Below are positions 7,404 through 16,359 of a stretch of 35,577 nt of DNA, piece after piece; positions within the stretch are counted from its first letter, which is position 1, and every line of letters starts with the position of its first letter. Origin of the DNA: Lentisphaera araneosa HTCC2155 (GTDB lineage Bacteria; Verrucomicrobiota; Lentisphaeria; Lentisphaerales; Lentisphaeraceae); contig NZ_ABCK01000039.1 in NCBI RefSeq assembly GCF_000170755.1, positions 1-35,577 of the forward strand, read 5' to 3'. A model generated the notes under the pieces. It was given only the letters and a program-made list of their open reading frames with translations, did no database searches and was not told the origin of the DNA. Both the position numbers and the translations under genes were made by a program.

Positions 7404-8066
7404 TTATTTAAGTTTTTGTGCTAGGGCACGACATGACGGTTGCCCTGGTGCTGCGGGTTTATCTAAAAAACCATAGGTAAATTTTGAGCCTAATTTCGGC
7501 AAAGTAAATCGTGTCTCTAGCCCCTCTGGCCCCATGCCCATAAGCGCTAAGCTCGAGTTCGGGTGAGAAGTGAGGACATTTTCTAAAGTCGCACGGTCAG
7601 CTTCTTCATTGCAAAAAACGGCGAGCTTCACGATATCCACGCCCCAGTCCTCACCTTGCTTAATTAACTGAGCCATTTCGCTTTCACTTGGACATTGATC
7701 ATAATTATGAAAAGAAGAGATAATGGTCATATTTTCGGGAAAGTCACTACGCTTTTGATAGGCAAATAAGTCACTTTTGAGTTCAATATCTGCGTAGGTC
7801 GCAATGTCAAAAAACTCTTTAAAAAACTCAAAGCGATGGGCGTCGTCAATTTGCCAAGTCCCACCTTCTTTATTTGTGCGAATCGTAATGAGAATCGGAC
7901 GATGCTGACTCAGCTCTCGGGCTAAAGATTTCGCTTCATTCAAATCCATGTATTCATCAAAACGCAATTCAACTACGTCACAACCTTCTAATTTCGAGGG
8001 GTGTTCAGATAGATCACGTAGAGTGTCGAGAGATGAAATTGTGCCGACAATAAAAAATGAGTTCAT
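7404..8066 (-). CDS. aroD: 3-dehydroquinate dehydratase, type I
   Basis: Third step of the shikimate pathway: dehydration of 3-dehydroquinate to 3-dehydroshikimate through a Schiff base. The 220-aa length suits the stand-alone type I (TIM-barrel) enzyme. Key residues are E34 (VELRFDE), R63 (TIRT), catalytic His120 (SSFHNY), Schiff-base Lys147 (VDIVKLAVF), Arg186 (ETRFTLPKLGS) and the closing APGQP. AGGACTCAAAT lies before the ATG. The start codon and Shine-Dalgarno lie within a 10-bp inverted repeat (8065-8097), which may affect translation. It is upstream of the BI-1 gene and 79 bp downstream of the pseudokinase gene. Confidence 0.96.
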   Translation of the reverse strand: MNSFFIVGTISSLDTLRDLSEHPSKLEGCDVVELRFDEYMDLNEAKSLARELSQHRPILITIRTNKEGGTWQIDDAHRFEFFKEFFDIATYADIELKSDLFAYQKRSDFPENMTIISSFHNYDQCPSESEMAQLIKQGEDWGVDIVKLAVFCNEEADRATLENVLTSHPNSSLALMGMGPEGLETRFTLPKLGSKFTYGFLDKPAAPGQPSCRALAQKLK

Positions 8067-8145: not shown

Positions 8146-11100
8146 TCAGCGTAAATCTAAATCTTCGTTCATTCTTACGCCTATAGATTTTTTGTCACTA
8201 CCTTTTAAATAACCTGCACTTAATTCTAACAAAGTGAAATCGCCTTTGCTAGCTTTTTTAAACTTTGGCTTCGCTAAAATACATTTATAAAAGTTACCGA
8301 CTTTACCATCTGCTTCTTCTAAAGAATAAGTGGCGCCTTTGTGGCCTGCTGAAATAGAACCTGGTGCATACAATAGGCAATTCTTATAATCACCTTTTTT
8401 ACTTTCTCTGTTAAACTGAATGAGTGCGTCCGAAGAATATATGATACAATTTTCAAACTCATAATCTGCATTACCGTTAATCACATATCGCAAGTCATAT
8501 ACAGGTTTCTTTAAAATTGAATTTTTAACATAAATATTTTTATTTTTCGCTCCACTAATACCCGAAAGTATAGAGTTGAAAATATTGATATTGTCACCCT
8601 CTTTTCTAGAAATTAATGGCCCTTTTATCATACAGTTAGTTATATTTACATCACTACCTTTATCATAAATGAGTACCCGACCAATTAAGATTATATTTTT
8701 AATTTGTACATTAGAAGATGCCACAATTAAATTTCCTTTAATAGTAACATTTTTTGTTCCAATAAGATTGACTTTTCTTCCTTCAATTTTTAAATCGCCT
8801 ACATAATCTCCAGGTAAAACCCTAACCGTATTATATTTTTCTGAAAGTTGCTTATTAAAATATAAATTACTGTGTGAATTATTTATGAATACCCCTTCAG
8901 ACACACCCGTTTCAGTCAATTCATTAAACTGATTTAACAAGCTTACGTAATAATCATTACCGCCTTTGAAATCTACTCTCTTAGAATACAATTTAAACAA
9001 TTGTCTCAACTGATGTGAAAAAGCAATTAAGTCATCACTGACTAAACTCTTAGTTTCTTTGCTTAAATAAGGGTAATCATACATTTCAAAAAGTCTTTCC
9101 ATCTCCTCATTAGCCAAATTAACCAAGCGATCCTTTAACTCCAAGCTAAGGATGTCACCATAACTTTTCCTGTAACTTTCTAAAGACTTATCGGCAGAGA
9201 TTAAATCGTCTCTATACACATAAAAAATTGTAGTTAGAAATGCTTTAGTTGATTCATCGTCACCATAAGCAATCCACTTTTGCAATTCTTCTCCTTTCAA
9301 TTCTTCTATACTGTAGGTCTTCTTAATAACACCCTTGGAGTGATTTAAGTTCACCTCAACGGTTAAATTATCTAAATCGCAAGAAATTATGCTTGCGTTA
9401 AAATCGCTTCCATTAAAATTAACTGAGATTTGAACATTATCTTGAGTTGCCAAAGTAGTTATAATTTCTGTATTTATTGTCTCTATACTTGATTTTTCAA
9501 CGAGTTTTGAAAAACTGAGCAAATCTACTGAGTCATGTAAGGGTAATAATTCTTTCATGCCTGCACTAGCTAATTTATGTTCCTTTGCAAAGAGGTTTTC
9601 TACTATCACATTCAGTTTTTCTCGTAAATCAACTTCAATTAAACTTTTCGCAAGATCTTGTTTATGCTTATCTATTAGCTCTTTTTGTTTGATTTTATTT
9701 TTTAATTCGATAAGCAACTCTTCTCTAATTTTCAAAGTTTCTTGAGCAAATGGCCCTTCATAATTAGTATAAATTTCTAAAGCTTCATTGTATTCCCTGT
9801 TAAAAACAGCTGTACCTACTTCTGATTTTAAATTAATAATGATTCTTCTTTGCTCAGCTAACTTCGCCTTGTTTATTTCCTTAGCTATCTTTTTTAATTC
9901 TACCTTCTGCTTTTGATTTGCTTGGCCTAAATCTTGAAGCAATTGTTTATCGAGCTTAACAAAATCAGGCTCAGCTTTTCTAATTTCAATTAGATAGAAT
10001 TTTTTGTTTAATGTAAACTCAGGCTGTTTTTTTGACGAATTAATTATTTCATCTAATTCTTCATTTTGATTCTCCTCAATGACTAGTTTTTTTTCATTTT
10101 CAACAATCAATGGCGCCACCTGTTTTTCTTCAGGCATATTAGTAAAAACCAAGTATGTTAAACTAATTGCTAAAACTATAAACATCCCTATAAAAAGCGG
10201 CTCCCTAGATTTTTCACTTGCTTGGTTTTGTACTCTGCCATTTACACGCTCAATTTTGGTAGGTGAAACATGAGCTTTAATTCGTCTGCGTTTAACACGC
10301 TTTTTGTCATTAAGCTTTTCACTCAAATCGATGGGAATATCTAAAGCAGTTTGAGTCGCCATTCTTCGACGAACGGTATTAGCACTCATAGGTGCATTAA
10401 GATTTTTAGATTTAAAATCACCTAAGGGATTGAGTAGATTAATAACTTTTTTATTATATAAGTCTTTCTTATATAAATCGGTTTTTTCACCTTCCATTTG
10501 ATTAAGGTTTTGATGATTTTTCGCAGAAAAATAAATCTCTAATTGCTGCCTAAATTCTTTAAAACTTTGCGGTCTATTTTCTGGATCATTTTCGGTGATA
10601 GACTTAAATATTTTAAGGAAACCTTGATCAAGCTCAGTTTCGACTGATTGGGGAAACACAAGATTGTTGTAGTCGACACCTTCACCATCTGAAGATACAC
10701 ATGGCGTTGTTCCAACAATCATATAATACAGAATCATACCTAATGAGTATATATCACTAGCTTGAGTTGGATAATCTTTACCTCTAGCTAATTCAGGGCT
10801 CAAGTAATAAACATCAAAAAAATGAACTTCTGATTTTGCAAAAGATTTTTCACTCATCAGCTGTGGTGCGACACCAAAGCCTTGATAGCGTACTTTCCCT
10901 TTGCTTGAAATAAAAATATTATTTGGATTTAAATTAAAATGACCGTTTGAAATATTTTTGACACCTTCCTCCAAAGATTTTACCAACTCATAAATAAGAT
11001 CCAATGCCTGATCAGAAGCCCAGATATACCCATAATCTACAAGTTGCTCGATACTTTCAAGTTTTCTAAACGGCATAACTTGGTACAAATATTTATCCGA

Positions 11101-11457
11101 TAAGCCTGTGTCAATAATCAACATGTGATTTTCACCTGCCATGAAAGACACTGCGCCAACTAATTCAATAAACTCTTTGGGATTACTAATCAGATTTGTT
11201 AAGGTCTTGTCATAAATTCTAAGTAACTTCAAATCATCATTATTTAAATCTTTACAGATATAAGTAGAACTATAGCCATCATCATTTGTTTTGTAAAGAG
11301 TTTGATATTTCCCCGCAATACGGACGCCTTCTTCCATACGGCCTTCGCGAAGTTCGATATCTGCTCCACATTTGACGCATTTAAAACGATCAACGTGAAT
11401 CGTACCCTCAAGGTCCATCACGTGTTCACAGCTATTACATGTAAGTTTGAATTTCAT
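8146..11457 (-). CDS. Zinc-ribbon / pseudokinase / TM / beta-helix protein
   Basis: 1103 aa from the ATG at 11457; a TTG four codons upstream (11469) is an alternative. Parts in order: a CxxC...CxxC zinc ribbon (Cys7, 10, 27, 30); a Ser/Thr kinase-like fold at about 45-310 with SPE (220-222), DIYSLG (Asp235) and ENRP (Arg295); a basic linker; a transmembrane helix at about 421-439; a Lys/Glu-rich, likely coiled-coil region at about 440-600; a middle domain; and at about 878-1103 a right-handed beta-helix-like region of repeated N-x-x-I-x-N-C/S turns. Catalysis looks lost: the VAIK lysine position reads Arg (KLLRIY), HRD reads H173-F-N175, DFG reads GFG (193-195), and the glycine loop is absent. 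Topology implies a cytoplasmic kinase-like head and an exported beta-helix. Function unknown; a signalling scaffold is a guess. Confidence 0.85.
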   Translation of the reverse strand: MKFKLTCNSCEHVMDLEGTIHVDRFKCVKCGADIELREGRMEEGVRIAGKYQTLYKTNDDGYSSTYICKDLNNDDLKLLRIYDKTLTNLISNPKEFIELVGAVSFMAGENHMLIIDTGLSDKYLYQVMPFRKLESIEQLVDYGYIWASDQALDLIYELVKSLEEGVKNISNGHFNLNPNNIFISSKGKVRYQGFGVAPQLMSEKSFAKSEVHFFDVYYLSPELARGKDYPTQASDIYSLGMILYYMIVGTTPCVSSDGEGVDYNNLVFPQSVETELDQGFLKIFKSITENDPENRPQSFKEFRQQLEIYFSAKNHQNLNQMEGEKTDLYKKDLYNKKVINLLNPLGDFKSKNLNAPMSANTVRRRMATQTALDIPIDLSEKLNDKKRVKRRRIKAHVSPTKIERVNGRVQNQASEKSREPLFIGMFIVLAISLTYLVFTNMPEEKQVAPLIVENEKKLVIEENQNEELDEIINSSKKQPEFTLNKKFYLIEIRKAEPDFVKLDKQLLQDLGQANQKQKVELKKIAKEINKAKLAEQRRIIINLKSEVGTAVFNREYNEALEIYTNYEGPFAQETLKIREELLIELKNKIKQKELIDKHKQDLAKSLIEVDLREKLNVIVENLFAKEHKLASAGMKELLPLHDSVDLLSFSKLVEKSSIETINTEIITTLATQDNVQISVNFNGSDFNASIISCDLDNLTVEVNLNHSKGVIKKTYSIEELKGEELQKWIAYGDDESTKAFLTTIFYVYRDDLISADKSLESYRKSYGDILSLELKDRLVNLANEEMERLFEMYDYPYLSKETKSLVSDDLIAFSHQLRQLFKLYSKRVDFKGGNDYYVSLLNQFNELTETGVSEGVFINNSHSNLYFNKQLSEKYNTVRVLPGDYVGDLKIEGRKVNLIGTKNVTIKGNLIVASSNVQIKNIILIGRVLIYDKGSDVNITNCMIKGPLISRKEGDNINIFNSILSGISGAKNKNIYVKNSILKKPVYDLRYVINGNADYEFENCIIYSSDALIQFNRESKKGDYKNCLLYAPGSISAGHKGATYSLEEADGKVGNFYKCILAKPKFKKASKGDFTLLELSAGYLKGSDKKSIGVRMNEDLDLR

Positions 11458-11588
11458 ATTACGGCTCAATTATTTATGTATCTTATATTATAAAACAAGT
11501 TGTATTAAAACTTGCGTCATAAAAATTATTAATTTTGTGTTAATACTCTATTTGCTTGTCAACCCCCAATTAACTGTGGTCTAAGAAG

Positions 11589-12455
11589 TTAATTATTTAA
11601 TTTCGACAAGTTTTCTGATAAAGATCTTAGTTGAATAGCCTTACTAATAGCTACAGAGTTATCAAAACTCACATCAGCGGGTCGTTCAGCAGCCATTTTT
11701 ACATCTTTTTGAAGACAGGGTTTAATAAAATATTTGGGAAGAGAAAAAGCTTCAGCAATCAGTAAACCCATTTCATAGCGACTTTCACGTAATGGGCCAC
11801 CCAAATGAACGAGACCTAATTCTAAAGAACTCACCTTCATTAAAGCTTTCGAAGCACAATTAACGTGTGCTGCTGAGCGGTACTCATCAGTAAACAAGCC
11901 GACCTGCTCCCGATTCTTCAGTTTTTCTTTGATCCCATAAACCATCGATCTCTTGTTATCTGCCGTGCTGTACATCAAGGGCATACGGCAAATACTCGCA
12001 GAATCGTTCCCTTTCATAACTTCCTCGGCCATCAATTTATGCTCAGCATAACGACTCAAAGGGTTCACTTCATCCTCTTCGGAATAATTGCCTTTCCTAC
12101 CATCAAAAACGAGATCTGTTGAAGTGAAGAGTAATTTAATACCACGCTCGGCGCAAAGTTCCGAGAGTAATCGACTCGCCAAAAAATTAATTTCTTCTGA
12201 TAACTTGGCTTCACGGTCACAAGTATTGGGATCGCTTAAAGCTGCTAAATGAAAAACTTTGCTAGGTCTCACTCTATCTAATACAGATTTCACTTCACTG
12301 AGTTTGCGAAGATCGCAACGCCCCGTTTTGTGGCTCGAACTTGTTGCTGAAGAATTAAAATACGTTCCATAAACCTCATAATCTTCACTTAAAACATTCG
12401 CTAATTCCGTCCCTAAAAAGCCGTGAATCCCAGTAATTAATACTTTTTCTTTCAT
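11589..12455 (-). CDS. RmlD-like NAD(P)-dependent sugar nucleotide reductase
   Basis: A 288-aa extended short-chain dehydrogenase. The Rossmann glycine motif GIHGFLG is at 9-15, the STD of the RmlD active site at 112-114 (STDLVFDGRKGNYSE), and the catalytic YxxxK at Tyr136/Lys140 (RYAEHK). This matches the dTDP-4-dehydrorhamnose reductase / RmlD substrate-binding family, which reduces the 4-keto sugar nucleotide in dTDP-rhamnose synthesis. No rmlA, B or C gene is nearby, so the substrate is unproven; it could be another deoxysugar reductase. It is divergent from the SIMPL gene (12581). Confidence 0.85.
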   Translation of the reverse strand: MKEKVLITGIHGFLGTELANVLSEDYEVYGTYFNSSATSSSHKTGRCDLRKLSEVKSVLDRVRPSKVFHLAALSDPNTCDREAKLSEEINFLASRLLSELCAERGIKLLFTSTDLVFDGRKGNYSEEDEVNPLSRYAEHKLMAEEVMKGNDSASICRMPLMYSTADNKRSMVYGIKEKLKNREQVGLFTDEYRSAAHVNCASKALMKVSSLELGLVHLGGPLRESRYEMGLLIAEAFSLPKYFIKPCLQKDVKMAAERPADVSFDNSVAISKAIQLRSLSENLSKLNN

Positions 12456-12580
12456 CTACTTACATAACCTTAATCATTTTCTAGAAAAATAAGATGAAAT
12501 AGCCACAAAACACTTCAAATAAATTCACTTTCTCTAAGTAAAGTCTTAATTTCTCTCAAACTAAACGGAGATCTCCACCC

Positions 12581-13348
12581 ATGAAACAATTTCTATCCCT
12601 TTTATTTATCACTTTCTTCACAACATATGCCACTGATATGCCATCCGAACCCTTTATCGTTAGCACTGGTAATGCCGAAATCAATATTAAGCCTGATCTC
12701 GCAAATATCAGTTTTAGACTACAGATCACAGAAGAGGAGTCTGAAGAAGCTATGGAAAAGTTTGGCCTACGCTCAGAGGATATAAAAATCTTTCTTACTA
12801 AATATCAAATACCTGGCCAAGACATCACGGCCTCAGAACTCAACAAAGAAGCGATTCGCAACTACAATAAAAGTAAACTTTCGAGCTCTTCAGCTCACCA
12901 AATTGCTGCTTACCGCTTCTCACGCAGCTATACCGTAACACTTAAGAAACTTGAAATCTATCCTGAATTTATGAGTGATTTGCTCAAGCTCAATAATGTT
13001 TATAGCAGTCGCAGTACTTTCAATAGTTCGAAACGCGAAGAGCTAGAAAAACAACTCATGAAAGATGCCATGAGTTCAGCTCGTAATAAAGCTCGAACCA
13101 TGGCGGAAATTGCTGGCGCTAGCATTAAAGGTGTCTATGCTATTTCAGACACAGGACTTAATGATCTAGGTGCTCGCTTTATCTTATCACAATACCCTCA
13201 TCCTATGCATGAGGATTTTTCTTTTAATGATAAAGCTGGTTTTGCTAGAGCTAGCAGCGCATCTGCGCGCTTGAAGAATTCGATTGAGATCCCCAAAACT
13301 CTCAAAATCACGGCTAAGATCAACGCCATATTTTCTCTGCTGAATTGA
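12581..13348 (+). CDS. SIMPL (DUF541) domain secreted protein
   Basis: 255 aa with an N-terminal signal peptide (MKQFLSLLFITFFTTYA), so likely periplasmic or outer-surface. The body has the SIMPL/DUF541 pattern: VSTGNAEINIKPDLANISFRL at the start, alternating strands, and ARNKARTMAEIAGASIKGVYAISD in the second half. Family members (for example YggE) form rings and have been linked to oxidative stress, but biochemistry is poorly known. CGGAG lies 12 bp before the ATG, inside a GGAGATCTCC palindrome. A 110-bp gap separates it from the PLD-like gene. Confidence 0.85.
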   Translation: MKQFLSLLFITFFTTYATDMPSEPFIVSTGNAEINIKPDLANISFRLQITEEESEEAMEKFGLRSEDIKIFLTKYQIPGQDITASELNKEAIRNYNKSKLSSSSAHQIAAYRFSRSYTVTLKKLEIYPEFMSDLLKLNNVYSSRSTFNSSKREELEKQLMKDAMSSARNKARTMAEIAGASIKGVYAISDTGLNDLGARFILSQYPHPMHEDFSFNDKAGFARASSASARLKNSIEIPKTLKITAKINAIFSLLN

Positions 13349-13458
13349 ATTTATTTTTAATAAAATTTAGCCATGTCCTTATAGTTTTCTTGATTTCCTT
13401 ATTTTTTTGTCTTACGCTAATAATTCATACAAAGAATTAAGTACTCTAGGAGGAGTTA

Positions 13459-13914
13459 ATGGCCCAATTTTTAAATCATGATGATTTATCATTTCACTTT
13501 CACCGTTTGATGACTCAAGCACAAAAAAAATTAATCCTCGTCACCCCCGTTCTTAAGTTCAATAAGAAATTCAAACAGCTCTTGGAAATAAAAAATAATT
13601 CTGCTGCTAAAATCAAGGTCATATATGGCATCAGCCGTTTGAGTAATGATGAAATGAAATTCTTAAAGAATCTAGAATTTGTTCACAATAGTGTCTGTAA
13701 TGACTTACATGCCAGTATCTTCCTGAATGAACATAAATGTATAATTGGTGGCTTAAACCTTCATGAATTTTATACTCCTGAGAAAGGGGCACTCGGCGTA
13801 CTACTAAATGCAAAGCAAGATGCTGACGCTTACCAAAACGCCTATCAACACGCCTTAGAATTAACAAAAATAAGCAGCACTGTAACTATTGCCTTTGCTC
13901 GTACCTTTTCATAA
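13459..13914 (+). CDS. Small PLD-like (degenerate HKD) protein
   Basis: A 151-aa soluble protein resembling half of a phospholipase D-like domain: an N-terminal KKLILVTPVLKFNKKF strand/helix, then KIKVIYG, then LHASIFLNEHKCIIGGLNL. The active HKD pattern HxKxxxxD is changed to His84, Ser86, Glu91, and the usual GS after it reads GG, so phosphodiesterase activity is doubtful. AGGAGGAGTTA precedes the ATG, an almost perfect Shine-Dalgarno. It ends just before a bidirectional terminator. The role is unknown; nucleic-acid or lipid binding is possible. Confidence 0.65.
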   Translation: MAQFLNHDDLSFHFHRLMTQAQKKLILVTPVLKFNKKFKQLLEIKNNSAAKIKVIYGISRLSNDEMKFLKNLEFVHNSVCNDLHASIFLNEHKCIIGGLNLHEFYTPEKGALGVLLNAKQDADAYQNAYQHALELTKISSTVTIAFARTFS

Positions 13915-13930
13915 ATTAAACTCTAAAACT

Positions 13931-13964
13931 AAAAAGCCCCGCAAGTTAACTTGCGGGGCTTTTT
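13931..13964. terminator. Perfect-palindrome bidirectional terminator
   Basis: aaaaagccccgcaagtt and its exact complement form a 17-bp-arm palindrome with A/T runs on both ends. It lies between two convergent genes (PLD-like + and sulfite reductase -) and can end transcription from both sides. Confidence 0.95.
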
Positions 13965-13983
13965 ATTGATCTTTTAAAAAGGA

Positions 13984-16359
13984 CTACTTATTATTTTCGC
14001 CATTTTTTAAGACAATCAATGAATAGTTTTGATTATCGTTGATCGGGTCGAGTTCAACAACCGTGTGACCATCTTTCTTAAGTGAGCTTGGCACTTGACG
14101 GAAAGAATCACCTGTATCAATAATCATCGCAAGTTCTTTACCATCTTCAAGACCATTGAGAACTAATTTAGCCTTCACATAGTTCATTGGACATTCAATA
14201 CCACGAAGGTCTAAGAAAGGACGTCCCTCTTTAACTTCTTCAGTATTGAGGAAAGGTTCGCAAGCTGCTTTATCTTTATTGTAGGCGGCGAGGAAGTCAT
14301 TTACGAATAGCTCAGCTGCTTGAAGGAATTCTGCGGCATAAGCAAAAGTAACTTCTGCAGGTGCATCTTCTCTCAAGATTGCTTTCGGATCAGGAGTCAC
14401 AGTGTTTGTAGTGAAGAACTCAACATACTTGTCGAAAGCTTCTTTATAATCAGCGACTTTCTCACCAGCTTGCATAAGCGCTGCATCAAAAGCGTGACGC
14501 ATAGCTTCTTGCGAGTTGAAGATAACGTCTGCGAAGAATTCTTGATCGAAAACTTTACGCGCCATTGTGATGTAGTTGTGAGCGTCATCAAGTGATTCGC
14601 CTACGAGGTTAAGAACACCACCAGCACATTCACCGGCACCAACTGCTGGAGAGTACTCGTCGCCTTCCGCTTGGTGATAGTCAGCGTAAACATCTGGGTT
14701 TTCATCATAGGCGTCAACTGCATCAAAAGGCTTAATAACTGGCTTGAGTTCTTTCACATCAACTTGTACCAACCAATCTTCGAGACTTAAGTCAGAGTTC
14801 TGTGCTTTGTAGTGATCGATAACGGCACGTACAGCTTCTGGAGCTTTCTTAGCCGCAACTCGGCCTACGCGACGAGCCATCTCGCGACGACCAAATCCAA
14901 CACCGCCACCAATTTGCATCATGGCACATGGTACAGCTTTATCGCCGAGAACACGACTTGAACCATTGAAACCAATGGACGCTACTGAGTGACGACCACA
15001 ACCATTGTGGCAACCAGAAATATTGATACGAACTTTGTCACCCACTTCAGCGATATCAGCTTCGTCTTTAAAAGACTCGTTAAGTGCTTCAGCTAAACCT
15101 TTCGAAGAAGTTACCGAAAGGTTACAAGTTGAGCGACCTGGGCAAGCTACCACGTTAGTAATGTGGTGGAATTGAGAGTTTGCGTAACCCGCAGCTTTCA
15201 ATTCAGCATAAATGCCTGCAACATTTTCAAGTTTCACATCTGTAAGAACGATATTTTGACTCGGTAATGTACGGATTTCGCCAGAACCAAATTTGTCCGC
15301 AATATCAGAAAGTGTACGAGCTTGCTCAGAAGTAAAGTCACCAAGATCAACTCTCACTTGAATAGTATAGAGGTCTTCAACATTCTGTGGGCGAACGCAG
15401 TTCTTAACCCATTCAGCATCATCAACGAGTGAGCCAACTTTGCTTACGTCAGCAGAGTCTTGTGGTAATTCGAGCTCGCCTTCTTCGAAAGAAAGGACAA
15501 GTGACTGACCATACTCAGATTCTTTAATACGGTTAAACTCAGCTTTATAGGCTTCGATGAATTTCTCGAGGCCCCATGTGTGCTTAATGAATTTCATACG
15601 AGCTTTATTGCGGTTTTCGCGATTGCCGTGCTCGTTAAAAATACGCATGAAAGCCGTCGCACAGATAAGTGCGTCTTCTACTGGGAGATCTTCATCAACT
15701 AAATCAGCACCGATTGGACGACCACCAAGGCCACCACCAGCGTAGACATTAAATTTGTAAGAACCATCTTCAATTTTTGAAGCAATAAAACCAACATCAT
15801 GCATGAATGAGTGGCCATTGTCTTCCGCTTCGTTACCGGAAAAAGTCATTTTAAACTTACGTGGGAAGTTCTGTGCATAAGGGTTACGGAGTGAGTGCTC
15901 AACGACGCGCTTAGCTACTGGAACAACATCGAAAAGCTGACCTGCACCAGTAGAGGCAAATGGATCAGCAGTGACGTTACGGATTGTGTTACCACAACCT
16001 TCACGAGAAGTAAGACCGACTTCAGTCAAATCTTTGACAAACTCAGGTGTATTAGCGAATGGTACATAGTGCATCTGAATTGCAGAACGAGTTGTTATAT
16101 GTAAAACAGAATTAGAGTGCTTTTCAGCCATACTCGCCAATTGACGAACTTGCTTAGAGTTGGTGATCCCGTAAGGAACCTTAACTCGAATCATTTGTAC
16201 TTCTGGTTGGCGTTGACCATAAATACCCTGCCATAAGCGACGCTTTTGCCAAGCATCCATGCTCATGTCGCCTTTTTCGTAGTTCTCTTTTTTTCCTTTG
16301 AACTCTACGAGTTCTTCTTGTACTTCGTCAGAAAGTTCAAATTCTAGTACTCTAGACAT
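13984..16359 (-). CDS. Nitrite/sulfite reductase hemoprotein fused to a TusA domain
   Basis: 791 aa. Residues about 45-530 form a siroheme/4Fe-4S nitrite-sulfite reductase: two ferredoxin-like half domains (IRVKVPYG near 57, and IQVRVDLG), the siroheme region TSREGCGNTIRNV (118-129), and the cluster ligands Cys406, Cys412 (ACPGRSTC) and Cys450, Cys454 (CHNGC). The six-electron reduction of sulfite to sulfide (or nitrite to ammonia) is the family reaction. About 545-690 is a helical region of unknown role; some related proteins carry a HEPN-like label. Residues about 710-791 are a TusA/SirA-like domain with the conserved Cys723 (ECPMNYVK), a persulfide carrier in other systems. AAGGATAAACAT lies before the ATG. 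Assimilation of sulfite with direct persulfide handover is plausible but inferred. Confidence 0.93.
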   Translation of the reverse strand: MSRVLEFELSDEVQEELVEFKGKKENYEKGDMSMDAWQKRRLWQGIYGQRQPEVQMIRVKVPYGITNSKQVRQLASMAEKHSNSVLHITTRSAIQMHYVPFANTPEFVKDLTEVGLTSREGCGNTIRNVTADPFASTGAGQLFDVVPVAKRVVEHSLRNPYAQNFPRKFKMTFSGNEAEDNGHSFMHDVGFIASKIEDGSYKFNVYAGGGLGGRPIGADLVDEDLPVEDALICATAFMRIFNEHGNRENRNKARMKFIKHTWGLEKFIEAYKAEFNRIKESEYGQSLVLSFEEGELELPQDSADVSKVGSLVDDAEWVKNCVRPQNVEDLYTIQVRVDLGDFTSEQARTLSDIADKFGSGEIRTLPSQNIVLTDVKLENVAGIYAELKAAGYANSQFHHITNVVACPGRSTCNLSVTSSKGLAEALNESFKDEADIAEVGDKVRINISGCHNGCGRHSVASIGFNGSSRVLGDKAVPCAMMQIGGGVGFGRREMARRVGRVAAKKAPEAVRAVIDHYKAQNSDLSLEDWLVQVDVKELKPVIKPFDAVDAYDENPDVYADYHQAEGDEYSPAVGAGECAGGVLNLVGESLDDAHNYITMARKVFDQEFFADVIFNSQEAMRHAFDAALMQAGEKVADYKEAFDKYVEFFTTNTVTPDPKAILREDAPAEVTFAYAAEFLQAAELFVNDFLAAYNKDKAACEPFLNTEEVKEGRPFLDLRGIECPMNYVKAKLVLNGLEDGKELAMIIDTGDSFRQVPSSLKKDGHTVVELDPINDNQNYSLIVLKNGENNK

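Follow-up and report, generated by a model that had tools for sequence, protein, structure and literature searches.

Pseudokinases are few in bacteria, and the function of most is unexplored; a gene of Lentisphaera araneosa HTCC2155 raises the question of what a protein kinase fold does once catalysis has been lost. The gene lies in the window, by which we mean the whole stretch of 35,577 nucleotides analysed here (positions 1 to 35,577 of contig NZ_ABCK01000039.1), from a host genome of 6.02 Mb. An earlier note, made from the letters of the window, described its product as a pseudokinase with altered catalytic residues, preceded by a zinc ribbon and followed by a transmembrane helix and a likely beta-helix, and took the whole for an inside-out sensor. 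The features on which our reading of the protein depends are collected in Table 1. The reading frame extends upstream to a TTG at 11469 (8146-11469, minus strand; 1107 aa). Because the ATG at 11457 and a TTGAG just upstream of it are conserved in three Lentisphaera species, the ATG appears the likelier start codon, and the gene end at 11457 that had been given earlier is correct.

Table 1. Features of the pseudokinase gene and of its immediate neighbours, in window coordinates
Feature	Position	Strand	Basis and remarks
Whole pseudokinase gene from ATG, 1103 aa	8146..11457	-	ORF scan
Zinc ribbon, CxxC...CxxC (C11, C14, C31, C34)	11368..11439	-	Cys nearly invariant in family alignment
Kinase-fold domain, aa 48-316	10522..11328	-	Pfam Pkinase 1.3e-17; PDB 4eqm 7.6e-15
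Arg84 at VAIK Lys (beta3)	11218..11220	-	Arg in 19/23 relatives with N-lobe
HFN (177-179) at HRD	10933..10941	-	Asp lost in 24/24 family members
QGFG (196-199) at xDFG; GFG = 197-199	10873..10884	-	Asp lost in 12/24
Retained fold motifs SPE (224-226), DIYSLG (239-244)	10738..10800	-	Family alignment
Single transmembrane helix, aa 425-443, N-in	10141..10197	-	Hydropathy and charge (positive-inside)
Periplasmic helical stalk	9460..10140	-	AF2, mostly low pLDDT; common to active kinases L128-L131
Possible small SH3-like beta domain, aa 691-720, low confidence	9310..9399	-	AF2 strands, pLDDT about 40; weak Foldseek matches to NusG/SGF29
Right-handed parallel beta-helix, aa 859-1100	8170..8895	-	AF2, VIA, 21-sequence alignment
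Upstream neighbour, RmlD-like NAD-dependent sugar reductase	11589..12455	-	Pfam 6.4e-43; conserved in genus
Downstream neighbour, type I 3-dehydroquinase (aroD)	7404..8066	-	Pfam 3.7e-38; conserved in genus

The zinc ribbon ahead of the kinase domain is confirmed by its cysteines. The Hanks-type fold of the domain that follows is likewise confirmed by homology: a phmmer search of PDB sequences matched 4eqm and StkP, and the alignment covers the length of solved bacterial kinases. An AF2 model of this part, built from two sequences, reached a pLDDT of 34, so that it is the homology on which the kinase fold rests. Alignment with the solved kinases places the changed residues at the catalytic positions themselves, which bears out the three proposed substitutions (VAIK Lys to Arg, HRD Asp to Asn and DFG Asp to Gly, seen as Arg84, HFN and GFG), and the landmarks of the fold, namely SPE, DIYSLG and the alphaI Arg (the Arg of NRP), are kept as had been stated. 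Two further losses had been missed, those of the Gly-loop, which reads NDDGYS, and of the alphaC Glu, which is replaced by Leu. With its fold assigned by homology and all three catalytic residues changed, the domain is, as far as sequence can define one, a Hanks-type pseudokinase.

This assignment is supported by conservation across a family, not by a single sequence. Syntenic orthologues are present in two other Lentisphaera genomes, one of them L. marina, at 86% and 50% identity; the host genome also encodes, at another locus, a tandem pair of paralogues (B and C); and a profile search with the ectodomain added members from further taxonomic families within the class Lentisphaeria. The search for homologues with the same domain order, which the earlier note had proposed as a check, thus returned three Lentisphaera species, tandem paralogues and several families of the class. 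Exceptions to the full architecture are one kinase domain without a beta-helix (G236k510) and a member whose beta-helix is encoded in a separate adjacent frame (L170).

The family comparison comprises 24 kinase domains, 23 of them with an N-lobe. The HRD Asp is absent from all 24, with Asn in its place in most members, and neither the alphaC Glu nor the first Gly of the Gly-loop occurs in any of the 23 with an N-lobe; the beta3 Lys is missing from 21 of these and replaced by Arg in 19. The DFG Asp is absent from only 12 of the 24, being retained in the C paralogues, and its position varies between D, E, N and G. Residues of the fold are kept throughout: the APE Glu in 23, the Asp of DxYSLG in 24 and the alphaI Arg in 23. 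Since nearly all other kinases examined keep both the HRD Asp and the alphaC Glu, the loss of catalytic residues, judged from these alignments, is well beyond chance. In a tree of 61 rows all 24 domains form one clade at 100/99, a grouping for which long-branch attraction of degenerate kinases is a concern and for which the shared stalk and beta-helix provide independent support. The pattern points to a single old origin of the catalytic loss. Two other degenerate kinases of the host genome, L037:1501-2388 (contig C3; HHH at HRD) and L079 (C5:194913; HQK), fall outside the clade in this tree. In the third Lentisphaera genome a frameshift within the activation segment divides the C paralogue into two frames (L069:11572-12240 and 12237-15107, plus strand), through either sequencing error or loss.

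The transmembrane helix and the beta-helix beyond the kinase domain are supported by hydropathy, AF2, VIA and conservation in the family. Every member has one transmembrane helix, and most show a positive-inside bias that indicates a cytoplasmic N-terminus. Because the bacterium is diderm and the protein single-pass with its N-terminus inside, the beta-helix is placed in the periplasm, and its earlier description as a surface domain is unsupported. Structure prediction, also proposed as a check, served for the beta-helix and not for the kinase part: in an AF2 model from two sequences, pLDDT was 70-84 over most of aa 859-984, and VIA gave Z scores of 14-17 against pectate/alginate lyases and pectin methylesterases, among them 6kfn (Z 17.0, 195 aligned, rmsd 2.8). 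A Pfam scan of the protein did not recognise the beta-helix. The right-handed parallel fold is shared with these enzymes, but no invariant set or cluster of catalytic-type residues was found in an alignment of 21 beta-helix sequences, the near-invariant columns of which are G, N, L and F.

Among the closest counterparts of this architecture are active enzymes. Zinc-ribbon Hanks-type kinases of the phylum (for example L129, L130, L172 and L174) resemble the pseudokinases in the zinc ribbon, the kinase domain, the transmembrane helix and either the shared stalk or a related beta-helix, but differ in having intact catalytic residues. Two of them, L172:1188-3761 (plus strand) and L174:886-4224 (minus strand), have one transmembrane helix and a related C-terminal beta-helix, and fall outside the pseudokinase clade; a strict rule that a beta-helix means a dead kinase was rejected on account of them. 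That intact kinases carry a related beta-helix suggests that it is an input domain of membrane kinases. Given also the stalk on active kinases, the overall layout suggests a membrane receptor kinase in which a single clade gave up catalysis. The choice of an inside-out sensor was arbitrary as to the direction of signalling, and the active L172 and L174 suggest ordinary outside-in input. Another kinase, L129:2038-5643 (plus strand), has two intact tandem kinase domains followed by the same stalk as the pseudokinase family, and L175 and L176, which look secreted and are only about 340-410 aa long, consist mainly of a related beta-helix and have no kinase.

A stalk or ectodomain is known on transmembrane pseudokinases of other bacteria, namely EssB/YukC and MviN (PMC12599244, PMC9600267). 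Thus, of the suggestion that the protein represents no described system, the part that concerns architecture and lineage stands, neither having been found in the literature searched, whereas the general design has precedents; a search for beta-helix kinases and Lentisphaerae pseudokinases yielded nothing on point, with subscription papers thinly covered. EssB/YukC, of the T7SSb of Firmicutes, likewise combines a cytoplasmic kinase fold, in which all catalytic motifs are degraded, with a transmembrane helix, a stalk and an extracytoplasmic part, and it touches all T7SSb components as a non-catalytic scaffold (PMC9600267, PMC12599244), a precedent for the mechanism that we propose for the Lentisphaera protein. 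It is tied to T7SS genes, however, and neither a zinc ribbon nor a beta-helix is reported for it; the Lentisphaera protein has no YukC match in a Pfam scan (E <= 1), and T7SS genes are absent from the neighbours of the window copy. MviN is a MurJ-type polytopic protein. Like the Lentisphaera protein, MviN/ActPs3 of Actinobacteria spans the membrane and has a kinase domain that is fully degraded; it acts by recruiting FhaA (PMC12599244). Unlike MviN, the Lentisphaera protein has one transmembrane helix and no MurJ match in the Pfam scan, and it has neither the activation-loop deletion nor the VALT at beta3 of ActPs3. The membrane-associated DYD pseudokinases of Actinobacteria and Firmicutes share the change of the beta3 Lys to Arg and the missing alphaC Glu, and have been modelled with ATP (PMC12599244). 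The Lentisphaera family, in contrast, belongs to another lineage, has lost the HRD Asp, carries a beta-helix ectodomain and has GFG or DFG, with DYD in none of its 24 kinase domains. The protein thus lacks a defining feature of each of these three groups. A reading of the gene as part of a defence system was dropped, all NCBIfam matches (PASTA kinase, MAD6 and others) being far below cut-off.

On balance, we lean towards a pseudokinase that crosses the inner membrane once and works as a receptor or scaffold. Its cytoplasmic kinase fold would transfer no phosphate, and in the window subgroup, which has lost the Gly-loop, the beta3 Lys, the alphaC Glu and both catalytic Asps, it would probably bind neither ATP nor Mg. 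The inert fold would instead offer a surface for protein docking; the periplasmic beta-helix, to go by its fold, may bind an envelope glycan or protein; the stalk would transmit or anchor; and the likely output would be recruitment of a cytoplasmic partner. Nucleotide binding may persist in part of the family, since the DFG Asp and the HRDxxxxN Asn are both retained in the C paralogues. It is also plausible, and we put this forward more tentatively, that the family constitutes class-wide receptors of Lentisphaeria, derived from active beta-helix kinases, in which the periplasmic beta-helix reads an envelope glycan and the inert kinase fold relays the signal by binding in place of phosphotransfer. 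The family offers at least 24 kinase domains in which catalysis was lost once, an ectodomain of defined fold, active relatives with a related ectodomain for comparison, and paralogues that retain the ATP site to different degrees; it thereby makes the role of a kinase fold after the loss of catalysis testable.

Selection bears on several of the alternatives. A comparison of the window copy with that of L. marina gave pN/pS values of 0.16 for the kinase domain, 0.21 for the beta-helix and 0.35 for the transmembrane helix and stalk; dN/dS of the kinase domain is about 0.055/0.434, or about 0.13. Purifying selection thus acts on the kinase domain, which is among the most constrained parts of the protein. 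A kinase gene in decay, a pseudogene in progress, might be read from the lost residues and from the split C copy; given this dN/dS, frames open across many genomes and the single old origin, that explanation is barely credible. Nor does the constraint sit well with a purely structural envelope anchor, in which the beta-helix holds polysaccharide or cell wall and the cytoplasmic domain merely anchors it. The resemblance of the beta-helix to carbohydrate enzymes would agree with such a role, as would envelope genes near some copies (RmlD within the genus, a DivIC-like gene by B and C, FtsW/RodA and a Mur ligase in distant genomes); a kinase domain no less constrained than the beta-helix would not be expected of an anchor, and the neighbourhoods are inconsistent between genomes, which leaves this reading very improbable.

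The dead domain might instead heterodimerise with an active kinase and tune it as an allosteric activator or decoy, in the manner of eukaryotic pseudokinase partners. The host genome has about 105 kinase-domain matches, in each of the three Lentisphaera species a divergently oriented active zinc-ribbon kinase lies close to paralogues B and C, and MviN forms a back-to-back dimer much like the one seen in canonical bacterial kinases (PMC12599244). Neither the window copy nor most of the distant copies has an active kinase next to it, however, and we consider such pairing rather unlikely. Repurposed catalysis, whether another ATP-dependent activity as in SidJ and SelO or a residual atypical kinase acting through Arg84 and the Asn residues, finds some encouragement in the prevalence of Arg at beta3 and Asn at the HRD position, in the modelled ATP of the DYD pseudokinases and in the DFG Asp retained by half of the family. 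It is nonetheless quite improbable: the window subgroup has lost every one of the catalytic elements listed above, and pocket positions vary, as at DFG, where a shared active site would be expected to hold them constant.

Which partner an inner-membrane receptor or scaffold might recruit was sought among conserved neighbours. Co-occurring genes, a further check proposed earlier, bear out a conserved neighbourhood within the genus and not outside it; because the neighbours differ beyond Lentisphaera, no partner is named. The window copy is surrounded by genes for RmlD, AroD, Bax1-I and PEP carboxylase, and may be co-transcribed with the flanking rmlD and aroD; the sole terminator predicted, in a weak scan, lies past the Bax1-I gene. 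Elsewhere in the window, a 151-aa ORF without a Pfam match (13459-13914, plus strand) adjoins the gene for a SIMPL-domain protein (12581-13348).
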